A stretch of DNA of 64,000 nucleotides from Erythrobacter sp. (GTDB lineage Bacteria; Pseudomonadota; Alphaproteobacteria; Sphingomonadales; Sphingomonadaceae), in contig NZOF01000045.1 of assembly GCA_002695185.1 (NCBI GenBank), forward strand, positions 22,527 to 86,526, written 5' to 3'. Under the pieces are notes generated by a model, which searched no databases, had not been told where the DNA came from, and saw only the letters and a program-made list of their open reading frames with translations. Position 1 is the stretch's first letter. The number at the start of each line of letters is the position of its first letter. Below, one piece after another: positions 14,514 through 35,881 of this stretch. The translations under genes were made by a program, and so were the position numbers.

Positions 14514-16856
14514 ATGACGACCGTCCGCTCTTTGGACCGCATAACCCGGATACTGCGCCGACCGATGTCGCGCCTCCCCGCAGGGGCTGCGCAGCGCGTG
14601 AAGGATTTGCTGGTAAGCGCGCTGATCGCTTTCGTCCTATTCGTCGGGACCATGCTCAGCCCGATCGACCAGCTTAGCTGGGTTCTCCAATCCCGCCTGG
14701 CGACGCATGAACCGTCGGGCGATATCGTCTTCGTCAGCACGGACAGCGACATAACCCACAGCGCCCAGCCGGAGGGCCGGACCGAGCTCGCCGCAGCCCT
14801 TCGCGCGCTAGCTGATCAGGATGTAGCGCGGGTCTACATCGACCTCGCTTTCCCCACCCGCTCAACAAATCAGGCTGACAGGGATCTGGCCGAGGCGATC
14901 GCCACACTTGGTCCACGGGTCATTCTTGTCGACCAGCTCGAACGCAAAGTCACCTCCGGTGATCGAGCCATTCGAACCATCCACACTATCGCTGGAGACG
15001 CGCGTAGAGTCGTTTCGCGGGATACCACCAATTGGATGGGTTACACGTGGACCCGTGATTTCACACATGAGATCGAGGGCGAACGCCTTCCCTCACTCGC
15101 AGCATCTCTCGCCGGCATCGAAGATCTCCGCAACGGGGACTTCCGGATCGATTACGCCCTGGATTCCCAAGACATCACCCATCTTGAGATGGCGGATTTT
15201 CTAGCCGGAGGAATTAGCGTGCGACTGGCCGGCCGGATCGTGGTGATCGGTAGGGAGGCCCGAATTGCTCAAATACAAACACGAGCGCCGGGTAATTTCG
15301 TGGTGCCGGAAAGTTATCCGGACATCTACGGAGCTGAAACGCTTAAGGCCGGAACGATCAAGTTTATAGGCGGCTTTCAGGCTCTGACTTTTTATTTCCT
15401 CCTGACACTCTTCGTACTGCTCCTGGTGCGCTCGAGCAATCAGCGACGAGTGGCTTATGCCCTACTTGCCATTTCGCTACCGGTCGTCCTTTACCTCGGC
15501 AACGTTCGGGGCATTAGAGCCGAGCTTTCCTATCCCGCCGCACTATTAATTTTATACGTTTTGTTGCGTTCACGATCTCGCTGGAAAGACCGGCTGGCCC
15601 TCGTAGATGATGAAACAGGCTTGCCTAAACTACGTGCCCTCGAATTGGAACTTGCGCAGGATATTCATGCAAGAGGGCATATCGTCGTGGCGCGCATTCA
15701 CGGTTACGAGCATGTTTTCAAAACGCTACCTCGGGTGGATCGCGCGAAATACACTCTCAAGCTTGTCGAACGTCTGCGCACGACCAACACCGACCGAGTA
15801 CTTTATTCGGAAGGGCACCACATCGCTTGGCATTCAGGCGAGGACGATGAGGAGCAGCTAGCAGACCATCTCGACGGCCTTAGAGCAATGTTCGCTGCGC
15901 CAATTTATGTTTCGGGTTCCTCGATCGACGTTGGGATAAGCTTTGGTGTCGCCAAGCTTGATGGGGATCCTGCAGCCAGGCTGGCTGCGGCAGTTGCCGC
16001 CGCAGAAGAAAGCTCCGAAGCGCTTCAGCCAATCAAAATTGCAGAAAGCAATTCACGTTTTGACGAGTTGTGGGATCTCTCATTGCGAGCTCGAATCGAC
16101 GAAGCGATGGAAGCGGGAGAGATTTTTTGCGTCTACCAGCCTAAGATAGATACAAGAAGCGGCACCATGACCGGGGTGGAAGCGCTGGTGCGCTGGAAGG
16201 ACCCCGTGCGTGGCTTCATTCCCCCGATGAACTTCATCGCACAATGCGAAAAAGCCGGACGAATGGAAGCTCTCACTGAATTCGTTTTCCGCACGGCGTG
16301 TGCCGCGGGTCGCCTGCTGCATTTCCGTGGACGTTCGCTCACCGTTTCGATCAATGTTTCGGCAACTTTGCTCTCGGACATGAAAGTGGTGAGCCTGATG
16401 AGAAATGCCTTGCATTCCACCGGGTTTGACCCCCGCTTCCTTGTTCTGGAAGTTACCGAGACGTCACGCATCGGAGATCTTCAAACTGCGGAACTCGTAC
16501 TGAATGAGCTGAAATCGATGGGTGCGCGGATATCGATCGACGATTTTGGAGTGGGTGAGACCAACTTCGAAACCTTTTTCGCACTTCCGTTCGATGAGGT
16601 GAAGATTGATCGATTGTTTGTCGCCAACATGGTGAAGAGCGAAAAAGCAAAAGCCATCGTCAGCAGCATCGTGAAGATGGGAAAAGAGGCCCGAATCGGT
16701 GTTGTCGCTGAGGGCGCCGAAGATACAGAAACTGTCAAAATGCTCACCGAAATGGGCTGCACTCATGTCCAAGGCTATATTTTAGCATACCCTATGATCC
16801 TTGAAAAGATAATGGAATTCAGCGGCTTAGAAGAAAGCAGCGCCGCCAAGGCATAA
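14514..16856 (+). CDS. CHASE2-type sensor with degenerate GGDEF and intact EAL domain
   Basis: The 780-residue protein is a membrane-bound cyclic-di-GMP phosphodiesterase candidate. After one N-terminal helix (about 30-48) comes an extracytoplasmic CHASE2-like sensor, then a cluster of hydrophobic helices (about 285-350). Next is a GGDEF-like domain whose active-site loop reads SEGHHIAW, so no cyclase activity is expected. The EAL domain keeps its catalytic residues: E556 in EALVRW, Asn in SINVSA, Glu in VTET, the Asp pair in IDDFG, Lys in VKIDRLF and Glu in VAEGAE. It is a single gene with a 258-bp upstream region and a hairpin after the stop. Confidence 0.85.
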   Translation: MTTVRSLDRITRILRRPMSRLPAGAAQRVKDLLVSALIAFVLFVGTMLSPIDQLSWVLQSRLATHEPSGDIVFVSTDSDITHSAQPEGRTELAAALRALADQDVARVYIDLAFPTRSTNQADRDLAEAIATLGPRVILVDQLERKVTSGDRAIRTIHTIAGDARRVVSRDTTNWMGYTWTRDFTHEIEGERLPSLAASLAGIEDLRNGDFRIDYALDSQDITHLEMADFLAGGISVRLAGRIVVIGREARIAQIQTRAPGNFVVPESYPDIYGAETLKAGTIKFIGGFQALTFYFLLTLFVLLLVRSSNQRRVAYALLAISLPVVLYLGNVRGIRAELSYPAALLILYVLLRSRSRWKDRLALVDDETGLPKLRALELELAQDIHARGHIVVARIHGYEHVFKTLPRVDRAKYTLKLVERLRTTNTDRVLYSEGHHIAWHSGEDDEEQLADHLDGLRAMFAAPIYVSGSSIDVGISFGVAKLDGDPAARLAAAVAAAEESSEALQPIKIAESNSRFDELWDLSLRARIDEAMEAGEIFCVYQPKIDTRSGTMTGVEALVRWKDPVRGFIPPMNFIAQCEKAGRMEALTEFVFRTACAAGRLLHFRGRSLTVSINVSATLLSDMKVVSLMRNALHSTGFDPRFLVLEVTETSRIGDLQTAELVLNELKSMGARISIDDFGVGETNFETFFALPFDEVKIDRLFVANMVKSEKAKAIVSSIVKMGKEARIGVVAEGAEDTETVKMLTEMGCTHVQGYILAYPMILEKIMEFSGLEESSAAKA

Positions 16857-16959: not shown

Positions 16960-16983
16960 GCCCATATTATACAGCAATACTTG

Positions 16984-17012
16984 AAAGGGCCTCTTTATTA
17001 GGGGCCCTTTTC
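16984..17012 (+). terminator. intrinsic terminator
   Basis: AAAGGGCC (16984-16991) pairs with GGCCCTTT (17003-17010) around an 11-nt loop, and the stem runs into TT. It closes the short transcription unit that would contain the 11-codon frame. Confidence 0.75.
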
Positions 17013-31782: not shown

Positions 31783-32769
31783 ATGACCGCCGAAACCACA
31801 TTGCCGACCGGCCAGGATTTGCTCAGCGAAATCGATCGCCTGCGCAAAGAAAAGAATGCGATCATCCTCGCGCATTACTACCAAAGTTCCCAGATTCAGG
31901 ATCTTGCCGATTTCGTCGGCGATAGCCTCGAGCTTTCCCGTAAGGCTGCCGAAACTGATGCGGATGTAATTGCATTCTGCGGCGTGAAGTTCATGGCTGA
32001 CACAGCCAAGATTCTTAGTCCCGAAAAGATTGTGGTTCTGCCGGATATGGATGCAGGTTGCAGCTTGGAAGACAGCTGCCCGCCCGACAAATTCAAGGCC
32101 TTCCGCGAAAAGCACCCCGATCACATCGCGCTGACGTACATCAACTGCTCGACCGAGGTGAAGGCGCTCAGCGACGTCATCGTCACCTCTTCCAGCGCGG
32201 AAACCATCATCAGCCAAATTCCCGAAGACCAGAAGATCATCTTCGGTCCCGACCGGCACCTTGGTGGCTACATGAGCCGCAAGTTCGGCCGCGAGATGCT
32301 GCTCTGGCCGGGTGTGTGCATCGTGCACGAAGCCTTCAGCGAGACCGAGCTTCTGAAGCTGAAGCAAGAGCACCCCGGCGCCCCGATAGCCGCGCATCCC
32401 GAATGTCCGCCGACCATCGTCGACCACGCCGATTACGTGGGTTCGACAAGCGGCATCCTGCAATTCGCGCAGACCTTCGAAGGCGACACGCTGATTGTGG
32501 CGACCGAGCCGCACATTATTCATCAGATGGAAAAGGCGCTGCCAGAAAAGAATTTCATCGGTGCGCCTGGTGCAGATGGCAACTGCAGTTGCAACATCTG
32601 TCCCTACATGGCGTTGAATACGCTGGAGAAGCTCTACAAGTGCCTCGATACGCTGGAGCCGCGTATCGAAATTGAAGAAGGCTTGCGCTTGCAGGCCAAA
32701 CAGAGCCTGGACCGGATGCTGGAAATGGCGAGCGGAACGATCGGCAAGGGTGATCTCGGGCGCGTTTAA
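31783..32769 (+). CDS. nadA: quinolinate synthase A
   Basis: The 328-residue enzyme condenses iminoaspartate with dihydroxyacetone phosphate to quinolinate for NAD synthesis. Cluster and active-site cysteines appear in DMDAGCSLEDSCP, AHPECPP and NCSCNICPYM. The opening EIDRLRKEKNAIILAHYYQ is family-typical. nadB and nadC are not nearby. The last 4 nt overlap the end of the convergent blh gene. Confidence 0.95.
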   Translation: MTAETTLPTGQDLLSEIDRLRKEKNAIILAHYYQSSQIQDLADFVGDSLELSRKAAETDADVIAFCGVKFMADTAKILSPEKIVVLPDMDAGCSLEDSCPPDKFKAFREKHPDHIALTYINCSTEVKALSDVIVTSSSAETIISQIPEDQKIIFGPDRHLGGYMSRKFGREMLLWPGVCIVHEAFSETELLKLKQEHPGAPIAAHPECPPTIVDHADYVGSTSGILQFAQTFEGDTLIVATEPHIIHQMEKALPEKNFIGAPGADGNCSCNICPYMALNTLEKLYKCLDTLEPRIEIEEGLRLQAKQSLDRMLEMASGTIGKGDLGRV

Positions 32770-33584
32770 CGCTCGAGACGTTCCGTCAGCATGTGCGGAG
32801 TTGCCATTCCAAAAGCGAGCGCCACGGCTAGCTGGGTTGCAAGTAAGCCCTGAGCAACAGCGACTGCGAGAGCAAACGCACCGAGGGTAGCGATCGCGGT
32901 GGGCAGAGCCACCGCTCGCACGACCCGCCTCCGGCCATAGGCAGCAATCTGCCGTTCCTGCACTGGAAGCGCATGGGCGATAAGGAAGATCAGCCCAACG
33001 GCAAGGACAGGCTGCAAGAAAGCGATCGACAGGCCAGCCACGATGGCATGTCCGAAACCGCGCAGCCCCTTGATGAACGCATAGAGAGCGAAGCCACCGC
33101 CTACGATGCCGCCAAGCGCAAGAAAGCGCAGGAAATTACGAGGCAATTCCTCCCCAGCTACGAAACCGAGTACGGTTGCCGTCTCGCTGTAGCGGAGCAG
33201 CGCGCTGCCTCCGACTGCCAGTCCGGCAATGGCGATACGTGTAACTTTGTCAAAGCGGCAGTCGCTGCGTGAAAAATGCCAGGCCGACAAAGCCAAGAAT
33301 AATGCGAGGCCGCCGAGAGGTTCGATCAAAAAGAGCCCTGCTACTGCCGCGCCGATCAGCACGTATGCAATTGCGTGGATCAGGGTGAATGATGCGAGCG
33401 TGTCTTCCTGCTCGTCGCCGGCTCCGTGCGAGAGACCGAGAACGAAAAAGATCAGGCCGATGTAGACTGGCAGTGCGCCCCCTGTAATCTGGGCGATTAC
33501 AGCGAGGGTTACGGCGAACCACGATAAAAGGGCCCCGGCATTATGCCAGGGCCCCGATCGTTTGAAGGCGACTGCCGGCTTCAG
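32766..33584 (-). CDS. blh: Brp/Blh-type beta-carotene 15,15'-dioxygenase
   Basis: The membrane protein cleaves beta-carotene to retinal, the rhodopsin chromophore. The conserved histidines are in GLSHGAGD, SAWHFSRSD, LIAHALPVQ and ATPHML, spread over about eight hydrophobic helices. The frame is continuous from just after the rhodopsin TGA (33588-33590) and has no ATG, GTG or TTG before GLSHGAGD. The first GTG (33362) would delete that motif. The only near-cognate start with a ribosome site is CTG at 33582-33584, with GGGGAG 8 nt upstream, giving 272 residues. In-frame read-through from the rhodopsin is the alternative. Confidence 0.8.
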   Translation of the reverse strand: MKPAVAFKRSGPWHNAGALLSWFAVTLAVIAQITGGALPVYIGLIFFVLGLSHGAGDEQEDTLASFTLIHAIAYVLIGAAVAGLFLIEPLGGLALFLALSAWHFSRSDCRFDKVTRIAIAGLAVGGSALLRYSETATVLGFVAGEELPRNFLRFLALGGIVGGGFALYAFIKGLRGFGHAIVAGLSIAFLQPVLAVGLIFLIAHALPVQERQIAAYGRRRVVRAVALPTAIATLGAFALAVAVAQGLLATQLAVALAFGMATPHMLTERLER

Positions 33585-33587
33585 CCG

Positions 33588-34454
33588 TCAATCTCCCCTG
33601 CGGGATGCGACTGCCGAACCGAGCGGCGATGTCTCCAGTGCCTCGGCTGCGGGAACATAACCCTCAAGCGCCGAACGACGAAGGACGTAGCGGCTCAGGA
33701 TCAGGCCGTAGATCAGCTTCGACGAGATGTCGGCGATTGAGAATAGCAGTTGGCGGATGACCACCACATCGCCATCGAAACCGATTTGCGGCAGGGCATA
33801 GGCAATCGGGTAGATTCCCCATGTGGCGAGAAAATACCACCAGATGTTCTTCGGCCATGCCTTGAGTTCGGGAGGGCTTTTCGCCACGCCCAGAGAGATT
33901 ACCCCGCGCACTTCGATGATCAGCCATACGAAGAACACCGTCGAAATCACGCCCCAAATGTTGAGCCTAGACCAGTCACCCGTTTCACCGAATTGACCGT
34001 AGAGACCTGTCCAGATCATCAACAAGGCCGGCACGATCATGCGGATCGCCCGCTTGTGAAGATCGGGACGAGCAATGCCGAATGCGATGGCAAGCTGCGT
34101 CAGCAGGATAGGAACTGTGATCGTCCAGTTTCCGTACCGGAAGGCGTTGGTGAAACTCTGGTTCTCGGCAAGCGGGCGATAAACGCTGCCGACCAGTTCA
34201 TAACTCGTCTGCCAGAGGTTGAATTCACGAAGCAGGCTAAGCCCAGCCGATGCCATCACGACAGCAGAGAGGATAGGGACGATGCGATACCGCGGCGCAA
34301 GCTGCAACGACATCACAAGAAAGAAGAGAATAAACGCGAAATGCGCGCCGTAGCTAACCATCAGGATCAAGGATCCGCTGGTGAATTGTCCGGTCGTCAG
34401 GGTAACGAGATTCTCGATACTACCAAACTGACCCACAGCTTGTTCAGCAATCAT
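33588..34454 (-). CDS. NTQ-type microbial rhodopsin, putative light-driven chloride pump
   Basis: The 288-residue protein has seven hydrophobic helices and the retinal-binding Lys246 in ADISSKLIYG, with Asp242 as second counterion. In helix C the pump motif reads FRYGNWTITVPILLTQ, giving Asn109, Thr113 and Gln120. This NTQ set is known from inward chloride pumps such as that of Nonlabens marinus, in place of DTE in proton pumps. The residue at the proteorhodopsin tuning site is Leu117, which favours green absorption. AAGGA precedes the ATG. blh follows in the same frame after the stop. Confidence 0.92.
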   Translation of the reverse strand: MIAEQAVGQFGSIENLVTLTTGQFTSGSLILMVSYGAHFAFILFFLVMSLQLAPRYRIVPILSAVVMASAGLSLLREFNLWQTSYELVGSVYRPLAENQSFTNAFRYGNWTITVPILLTQLAIAFGIARPDLHKRAIRMIVPALLMIWTGLYGQFGETGDWSRLNIWGVISTVFFVWLIIEVRGVISLGVAKSPPELKAWPKNIWWYFLATWGIYPIAYALPQIGFDGDVVVIRQLLFSIADISSKLIYGLILSRYVLRRSALEGYVPAAEALETSPLGSAVASRRGD

Positions 34455-34576
34455 GCGATTGTCCTTCGAAAAAGGGGGACTAGCCCCAATTGAAGCGACA
34501 CTGCCCAGTCCTGGCCCCCATAAGCTGTGCGCGTAGCAACCAAATCGCGTTTAAGCGGTTGTGTTCCTGAATAGAA

Positions 34577-35881
34577 ATGGACGGGGCACGTTTTTTGACT
34601 GGACCAAAACCTATAAACGACCTGTTAGGCTGGTTCGTCCATCGTCTTACTGCCAATTACTGGTCCCTGGCTTTATGCGCTGTGCTGGCGGCACCCTTGG
34701 TCTTCGCTGCCAGTTTGCATGCGGACCGAAATGGCTTGACCGCTTGGATTTTGGAGCATGATCTTGCTCCTGTCGCCACCGCGGAGACAGCACGTGATGC
34801 TGCGGCATTGATTGCCGGGATCGACGCAGCATTTCTCACCCTTTATTTTTCCATCTCGCTGATCGTGCTGACGATTGCTGCTGGCAATCTCGGCGTGCGC
34901 CTGATCGATCGCTGGCTGGCGAAACGATTGGTCCGCATTTCCATAGCCGGCCTGTGTTTCACGCTCATTCACGCGACGCTGACGATGAATGCGATGGATG
35001 CTGATGCGGGTCTTATCGATACGCCTTTGGCCACATTCGCCTCCACAGTACTGCTGCTTATGATCAACACGGTAATGCTTGCTGTGGCCACTCACGATCT
35101 TGGCCGCACCATGTTCATCGACAGAGCGATTGATGCTGTTGCATCCGACGGGCGAAAGAGTGTCGTGCTGCTCCAGCAGGTACCTCAGACTCAAACAGAC
35201 TGGGCTGACACGGTAAAAGCTCCGCGTAACGGCTATATCGAAGGGGTGGAGCTCAAGCGGCTCAGCAAGGCGCTTGCCAGCGGCAGTGAATCACGGCTTG
35301 AGGTAGCCCCGGGCCAGCATGTGTTGAAGGGGCAGACGCTCATATCTTGCCAGAGCCAATGTGAGTATCCGAAGGCGGTTCTGAGAGCTATTCCGATCGG
35401 CAAGTTCCGCAGTAATACGCAAGGGGCGGTTTTCCAGATACGCCTCTTGGTTGAGATCGCTGCACGGGCCTTATCGCCCGCCGTCAACGATTTCTACACT
35501 GCACTGGCGGCAGTCGATGCGCTGACGGAAGTCGCATCCGGGCATTGCCGCAACTGGGTGGACGAAGGCAACGTTCCCGTCAGCCTGGATTACCCGTCCA
35601 TCGCCCTGCCCGGCCAGGACTTTCGCGGTCTCTTCGAAGATCCGCTGGCCGCCCTGAGACAGGCAGCGGCCGATTACCCTTCCGTTTCGATCCGGATAAT
35701 CGGGAACGTCCAGCGACTTGTGCGCTTGCATTGCTCTCATGCGCCCGGTCTGGTGGTCTTTCTTGTCGAATACGCTAGCGAACTCCATCAGCAAGCACGC
35801 GCTCGCTGCGAAATCGATATGGACAGGGATACCCTGGATCGAAGGCTGGCGGAACTAAAGAAAGAGGCAGGGACTGGATGA
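34577..35881 (+). CDS. DUF2254 membrane protein (first of a pair)
   Basis: The 434-residue protein has four N-terminal hydrophobic helices (about residues 28-45, 80-102, 115-135 and 150-170). A cytoplasmic domain follows with the DUF2254 features NGYIEGVELKRL and IAARALSPAVNDFYTA. The function of the family is unknown, although the ALSPxxND motif is strongly conserved. It is divergent from the rhodopsin gene with 122 bp between starts. It overlaps the second copy by 4 nt. Confidence 0.82.
   Translation: MDGARFLTGPKPINDLLGWFVHRLTANYWSLALCAVLAAPLVFAASLHADRNGLTAWILEHDLAPVATAETARDAAALIAGIDAAFLTLYFSISLIVLTIAAGNLGVRLIDRWLAKRLVRISIAGLCFTLIHATLTMNAMDADAGLIDTPLATFASTVLLLMINTVMLAVATHDLGRTMFIDRAIDAVASDGRKSVVLLQQVPQTQTDWADTVKAPRNGYIEGVELKRLSKALASGSESRLEVAPGQHVLKGQTLISCQSQCEYPKAVLRAIPIGKFRSNTQGAVFQIRLLVEIAARALSPAVNDFYTALAAVDALTEVASGHCRNWVDEGNVPVSLDYPSIALPGQDFRGLFEDPLAALRQAAADYPSVSIRIIGNVQRLVRLHCSHAPGLVVFLVEYASELHQQARARCEIDMDRDTLDRRLAELKKEAGTG

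Follow-up and report, generated by a model that had tools for sequence, protein, structure and literature searches.

The locus studied here raises the question of how a gene for a retinal-producing enzyme is translated when it lies directly behind a rhodopsin gene and has no normal start codon. To our knowledge, it is an open question how bacteria adjust retinal supply to the quantity of opsin present. In the window, i.e., the whole stretch of 64,000 nucleotides of Erythrobacter sp. DNA that was analysed, a rhodopsin gene is followed by the gene blh (Table 1). The initial annotation had noted that the rhodopsin ends with GGA GAT TGA at 33588-33590, that the 273 codons open past this TGA encode a complete Brp/Blh protein, that the interval from the TGA to the motif GLSHGAGD is devoid of ATG, GTG and TTG, and that a CTG at 33584-33582 is preceded by GGGGAG 8 nt upstream. 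All four observations were borne out: the two genes are encoded on the minus strand, the last rhodopsin codons read AGG GGA GAT TGA, the sense codons of blh run from 33587 to 32769 with a stop codon at 32768-32766, the first in-frame standard start is a GTG at 33362, past the motif, and GGGGAG occupies 33598-33593. Two explanations had been offered, either a start at the CTG that would keep Blh at a low, coupled level or read-through of the TGA yielding a rhodopsin-Blh fusion.

Table 1. Features of the rhodopsin-blh junction and their coordinates in the window.
Feature	Position	Strand	Detail or basis
Rhodopsin gene, predicted NTQ-type chloride-pump family, 288 aa	33588..34454	minus	stop TGA 33590-33588
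Shine-Dalgarno-like AGGGGAG in the last rhodopsin codons, 8 nt before the CTG	33593..33599	minus	predicted duplex -8.2 kcal/mol
CTG, proposed blh start codon	33582..33584	minus	start slot of relatives, clade, spacing to hairpin
blh, Brp/Blh beta-carotene 15,15'-dioxygenase family, 272 aa from the CTG	32766..33584	minus	reading frame and PF15461
Terminator-like hairpin, 12 pairs, 3-nt loop, over the GPWHNAGAL codons	33529..33555	minus	stem scan and covariation
T run TTTT at the hairpin's 3' foot; the first T still belongs to the stem as its final base	33526..33529	minus	sequence

Sequence comparison identified chloride-pumping rhodopsins as the closest PDB matches of the rhodopsin (E 1e-52), and in the alignment N, T and Q occupy the three pump positions of helix C in RYGNWTITVPILLTQL, aligned positions that we take to be the N-T-Q motif. 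A predicted NTQ chloride pump, the protein is most like solved pumps of the ClR/FR group, to which its best PDB matches and the N-T-Q positions point. Nothing unusual was noticed in the protein itself; the 3' end of its gene and the overlap downstream are unusual. The blh product matches PF15461 over nearly its whole length (56.2 bits for a cut-off of 28; profile positions 3-261 of 267) and carries the motifs common to 25 aligned homologs, as expected of Brp/Blh proteins, but it scores 78.4 bits with TIGR03753 (E 6.5e-22), below the cut-off of 95.25. From these profile scores it would be filed under PF15461 and outside the TIGR03753 subfamily model. It also departs from other Brp/Blh genes in its CTG, which replaces a standard start, and in the overlap of its first 20 codons with a conserved hairpin. 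Between the window and locus L001 from Qipengyuania aestuarii, whose rhodopsin is 94% identical to that of the window, codons 21-272 of blh show a dN of 0.133 and a dS of 1.743 (dN/dS about 0.08), and the enzyme is therefore under purifying selection. Searches with the Blh alignment among solved structures and with blh among plasmid records gave no match, and none of the viral contigs searched encodes a relative of the database protein P0004.

The initial annotation had proposed comparing the junction in related genomes for conservation of the TGA, the frame and the CTG. Alignment A1 joined 25 of 96 homologs to the translated window, and 18 loci were fetched through them. A blh match was present in 23 of 397 genomes of the family (E <= 0.001, some of these matches being very weak) and in 15 of 60 genomes of the genus. 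In a class-wide sample of 385 genomes, no rhodopsin of this kind was found at E <= 1e-40 besides that of G001. After merging duplicates and dropping incomplete or broken loci (L037, L038, L039, L042, L044, L045, L046 and L057; other missing identifiers are duplicates), 33 distinct rhodopsin-blh junctions were kept, window included. The rhodopsin tree holds 31 rows (L040 and L043 left out), 12 of its 28 inner branches being open, and the hairpin alignment A2 holds 30 junctions (L018, L040 and L043 left out).

At 30 of the 33 junctions, the frame of blh has an ATG, GTG or TTG in the interval from -8 to +10 nt, counted from where the rhodopsin stop codon ends, and stays open to +63, while the same count in the two other frames gives 1/33 and 0/33. 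The open frame without a start codon is less telling; 32 of 33 junctions keep the frame of blh free of stops between the rhodopsin stop and +66, compared to 22 and 22 for the other frames. At the 25 junctions where blh is out of the rhodopsin frame, the start codon moves together with the blh frame. The three junctions devoid of a standard start are those of the window, L001 and L025, all of which have a CTG, located in L025 21 nt after the rhodopsin stop. Start codons are distributed as TTG 15, ATG 10, GTG 5 and CTG 3; in L027, preference was given to the ATG at -1, which its sisters also use, and not to a TTG at -4. On the rhodopsin tree, the three CTG users form one group (98/94) and, because they are a single clade, the change to CTG was counted as one event. 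This group is nested in a larger one of 16 rows, whose genes use TTG, GTG or CTG and whose fork (92/93) lies below the star level of the tool. Most simply, the tree suggests that in this clade a start of the TTG/GTG type gave way to CTG.

Measured from the stem of the hairpin, position -30 bears an ATG, GTG or TTG in 21 of 30 junctions and a CTG in 2. Position -33 bears five ATG, and the other 53 positions scanned have a mean of 0.45 of 30 and a maximum of 6. Removal of five near-copies leaves standard starts at position -30 in 19 of 25 junctions, plus the 2 CTG. The CTG of the window therefore falls in the start slot of its relatives. The in-frame layout is in itself unremarkable, being found at 8 of 33 junctions, window included; the position of the CTG is beyond chance. 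A sequencing error that hides an ATG, which would have undermined the proposed start, is unlikely because two other genomes (L001 and L025) likewise have no ATG, GTG or TTG at -8 to +10. On this comparative basis, blh translation very probably begins at the CTG. The part of the earlier proposal that concerns the start codon thus stands, by the start slot of the relatives and by the single clade, while the low level of Blh is something we infer.

The CTG is accompanied by a strong putative ribosome binding site. Mean predicted Shine-Dalgarno energies are -8.3 kcal/mol for CTG (n=3), -6.0 for GTG (5), -5.1 for TTG (15) and -2.6 for ATG (10), a trend to which no test was applied because the rows are related. 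Against it, the strongest single values fall outside the CTG group, L012, L015 and L034 (TTG/GTG) reaching -9.4. A strong Shine-Dalgarno sequence likely compensates for the CTG start. GUG and UUG starts are reported to be compensated by stronger Shine-Dalgarno sequences in an excerpt of PMC5622118, and CUG, according to an excerpt of PMC11497404, makes up 0.024% of bacterial starts and yields in E. coli 0.86% of the AUG output, compared to 29.8% for UUG. The blh start of the window thus resembles other bacterial non-AUG starts in combining a rare codon with a strong Shine-Dalgarno sequence (PMC11497404 and PMC5622118, excerpts), but differs from other CTG starts in that two features, the start codons of relatives and a hairpin lying 30 nt farther on, mark out its slot. 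Some observations count against the CTG. L001 carries an additional in-frame TTG six codons past its CTG, at which the database proteins P0001 and P0002 start and where the window has TTC, and a fold predicted for 108 nt would pair parts of both the Shine-Dalgarno sequence and the CTG. With ATG, GTG and TTG as the only starts allowed, the blh ORF of the window shrinks to 198 aa (33362-32766) and no longer includes the HGAGD motif, which calls for caution in gene prediction. P0004, a database protein of 198 aa that is 95% identical, begins at the very residue of this GTG-started ORF, which, judged from the protein alone, fits the same absence of a standard start upstream.

The hairpin located within the first 20 blh codons was absent from the initial annotation. 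A perfect-stem scan of the 64-kb window ranks it top on the minus strand, tied with the best of both strands. Matching a terminator consensus means little by itself because the scan of 32500-35000 gave 3 terminator-like sites for 2.7 expected in shuffles, a point against the proposed mechanism. Conservation is more informative. When stems were scored against 730 neighbouring windows of 80 nt, 30 of 33 junctions had one above the 99th percentile no more than 80 nt away from the stop of the rhodopsin; against this, no such stem was found in three linked junctions (L018, L040 and L043). When the 14-pair structure of the window is laid on the 30 aligned junctions, 91.9% of cells are paired (shuffled mean 81.7), 10 of the 14 pairs have changes on both sides (4.3 in shuffles) and 37 cells are double-changed (9.9 in shuffles). 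None of 500 shuffles matches the pairing or the double-change values, with the reserve that shuffles ignore kinship and that some rows are near-copies. Sliding the partner by 1-3 columns lowers pairing to 43-64%, and RNAalifold, unprompted, gives the same helix with 13 pairs.

Synonymous change is likewise suppressed. For six degenerate conserved codons under the stem, the majority codon accounts for 95% on average among 14 close relatives versus 57% over 99 other conserved columns, a value attained in 0 of 20,000 resamplings, and dS relative to L001 is 0.15 in the ten hairpin codons versus 1.74 in codons 21-272. Covariation and suppressed synonymous change together show that the RNA (or DNA) structure itself has been selected, and on this evidence we consider it virtually certain that the conserved hairpin is real. 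As in intrinsic terminators, the conserved structure is a G+C-rich stem-loop. The U run is TTTT in the window and reaches at least 4 T in the first 8 bases at only 20 of 30 aligned junctions; because this run is uneven, the hairpin and not the terminator tail is the conserved part, a point against the proposed mechanism. The distance from start codon to stem is exactly 30 nt at 23 of 30 junctions and 27 (1), 33 (5) or 42 (1) nt at the others, a spacing inseparable from the ordinary scarcity of in-frame insertions and for which no functional role is claimed.

Other origins of the stem were considered and rejected. Conservation of GPWHxAGAL for the sake of the peptide alone does not account for L016, L017, L028, L029, L032, L035 and L041, where the peptide differs and the stem stays. 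The stem is not a dispersed repeat either: with up to 2 mismatches allowed, its sequence occurs once per genome and only at the junction, in 8 of 60 genomes of the genus. No known riboswitch or sRNA was found in 32700-34800, where an Rfam search returned three matches, all below the gathering score (E 0.42-0.63).

Rhodopsin genes devoid of blh offer a clue to the source of the hairpin. Among 17 rhodopsin loci examined, 11 are NTQ rhodopsins that are 62-68% identical to that of the window and have no blh in the fetched stretch. In nine of these 11, an ordinary terminator (a long G+C stem followed by 4-6 T) lies no more than 85 nt from the rhodopsin stop, while none was found within that distance in L103 and L106. 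The hairpin therefore looks like the 3' end of the rhodopsin gene itself, now overlapped by the start of blh. This origin as an old rhodopsin 3' end is tempered by the kinship of the nine terminators, which are not independent cases because one C-terminus is common to all nine.

At the sequence level, the comparison of junctions demonstrates the hairpin with its covariation as well as the start slot and the frame. Beyond that, we infer that the CTG is initiated in the cell, that the Blh level is low and that translation relieves termination. Blh would be a separate protein, its CTG being initiated by ribosomes that have just finished at the rhodopsin TGA three nt upstream, helped by the Shine-Dalgarno sequence in the last rhodopsin codons. 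Ribosomes leaving the rhodopsin would seldom start there. Ten codons on, the blh frame would cross the old rhodopsin 3' hairpin, a terminator-like stem with a short U run, kept at the RNA level with the overlapped peptide free to change. If blh were left untranslated, the hairpin would end or trim the message after the rhodopsin; a ribosome entering blh would open the hairpin and prevent that ending. The rare start and the hairpin would together hold Blh, a catalyst, far below opsin. We give a probability of about two in three to this main reading, i.e., that a weak, coupled CTG start and an overprinted leaky terminator or stabilising hairpin keep Blh scarce relative to opsin.

Three alternatives concern the start of Blh. 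Read-through of the TGA, giving a fusion that would hand retinal to the opsin, could draw on a frame that, in the window and L001, continues beyond the TGA and on the C that follows the TGA, a leaky stop context. However, blh is out of the rhodopsin frame at 25 of 33 junctions and, even among the 8 in frame, L025 reads TGA TAA, so that most relatives do not keep the frame across the stop as translational read-through would demand, and 30 of 33 have a standard blh start beside the stop. Moreover, the read-through protein (TGA as W, residues 200-560), searched over about 5.8 billion proteins with a length filter of about 310-980 aa and scoring of the 7997 candidates sharing most words, gave no match with both domains; the two proteins obtained (332 and 320 aa) have one a BCD domain alone and the other a rhodopsin domain alone. 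Read-through is therefore not the conserved way of making Blh, although a trace of it may occur in this strain, and the fusion put forward in the initial annotation is highly improbable. A start farther downstream, for example at a CTG that is codon 39 past the TGA, or at an ATC or ATT, would leave the stretch from the TGA to the hairpin untranslated. This would agree with the resemblance of the hairpin to an intergenic terminator, with codons 2-10, where 13 of 27 nt differ from L001 in a 3/4/6 spread over codon positions and coding constraint looks absent or unclear, and with the annotated starts beyond the GPWH block in 9 of 25 aligned homologs. Gene callers often pick starts farther downstream, however, and 8 of the 25 are annotated from ten residues before GPWH. 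The near-exclusive presence next to the rhodopsin stop of standard starts that are in frame with blh, the opening of that frame to +66 and the absence of ATG, GTG and TTG before 33362 in the window also argue against it, making such a start very unlikely. Finally, the blh of the CTG clade could be losing its start and turning into a pseudogene, as the poor performance of CUG in E. coli (PMC11497404, excerpt) and the broken rhodopsin-blh remnants at related loci (G436 and G030) might suggest. The low dN/dS relative to L001 over codons 21-272 and the fact that each of the three CTG genes retains a full-length frame (271-272 aa) make this as improbable as the fusion.

The other alternative retains the CTG start but assigns the hairpin a different role, that of a 3' stabiliser or processing end of the rhodopsin message, the opsin to Blh ratio being set by RNA half-lives. 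The stem is kept at 30 of 33 junctions even though 10 of 30 have fewer than 4 T in 8, and there is a precedent in the Rhodobacter puf operon, whose hairpin reportedly acts as a 3' stabiliser or processing end (Klug 1987). In this photo-energy operon, an intercistronic hairpin separates a highly needed product from its lesser partners, as at the rhodopsin-blh junction; here, in contrast, the hairpin is read within the downstream gene, and a U run stands behind it in two thirds of the aligned junctions. The typical terminators with runs of 4-6 T found at the same place in nine of the 11 blh-free NTQ paralogs, the TTTT tail in the window and the rank of the stem among the two top-scoring of the 64 kb oppose a stabiliser, which we consider unlikely. 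The hairpin may also both terminate and stabilise, but a terminator relieved by translation was put somewhat ahead because the blh-free paralogs have terminators. That the start of blh overprinted a rhodopsin terminator which was kept as a built-in attenuator, weak coupled translation gating transcription into blh, is a tentative proposal to which we give somewhat less than even odds.

Such an attenuator would have precedents. In E. coli, the ribosome can block intrinsic terminator hairpins (PMC5021804, excerpt), and large numbers of RNA 3' ends lie inside ORFs (PMC7815308, excerpt). In the pyrBI and pyrL attenuators, as described in the same excerpt of PMC5021804, a ribosome keeps the terminator hairpin from forming, as proposed here for blh. 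Unlike these systems, the junction has no separate leader peptide; the candidate hairpin is embedded in the opening codons of the very gene that it would regulate, and the start that precedes it is weak and coupled. If the attenuator proposal is true, lineages would tune the ratio of opsin to retinal enzyme through the start codon (ATG, GTG, TTG or CTG), the Shine-Dalgarno sequence and the stem, the overlapped peptide would drift, and the fixed 30-nt spacing would set a race between ribosome and RNA polymerase. The junction thus offers a concrete, conserved and mutable candidate element, a start behind the opsin stop with a hairpin usually 30 nt on, within the gene of the retinal enzyme. It also offers a natural CTG start supported by comparison and a terminator-like RNA structure that overrides the peptide encoded there. 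Among open-licence papers, surveyed by title and abstract opening with partial coverage, none on a rhodopsin-blh overlap was found.

Several minor observations were made at these loci. The blh gene of the window overlaps tail to tail by 4 nt (32766-32769) with a convergent ORF (31783-32769, plus strand) that presumably is nadA. Two other strong G+C-rich stems with T at their foot are found in the window, at 16983-17011 (plus strand) and 63747-63722 (minus strand); the former may show how a terminator looks in this genome because it lies behind ORF 14514-16856. In G436 (L057 and L073), a rhodopsin fragment adjoins and overlaps a match to the last part of blh, which suggests a deletion through both rhodopsin and blh. 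Other copies are damaged as well: blh is matched in two pieces in G030 (L037 and L045) and has only 213 aa in L013. Second rhodopsins are also present. In the genomes of L002 and L001, a distant one with D in place of N in helix C (L074 and L075) has no blh within the fetched stretch, and one blh may therefore serve two pumps. Four genomes (G104, G318, G341 and G381) each carry two NTQ-type rhodopsins (L107-L110 with L086-L088 and L090), one linked to blh and the other unlinked and with a terminator of its own.
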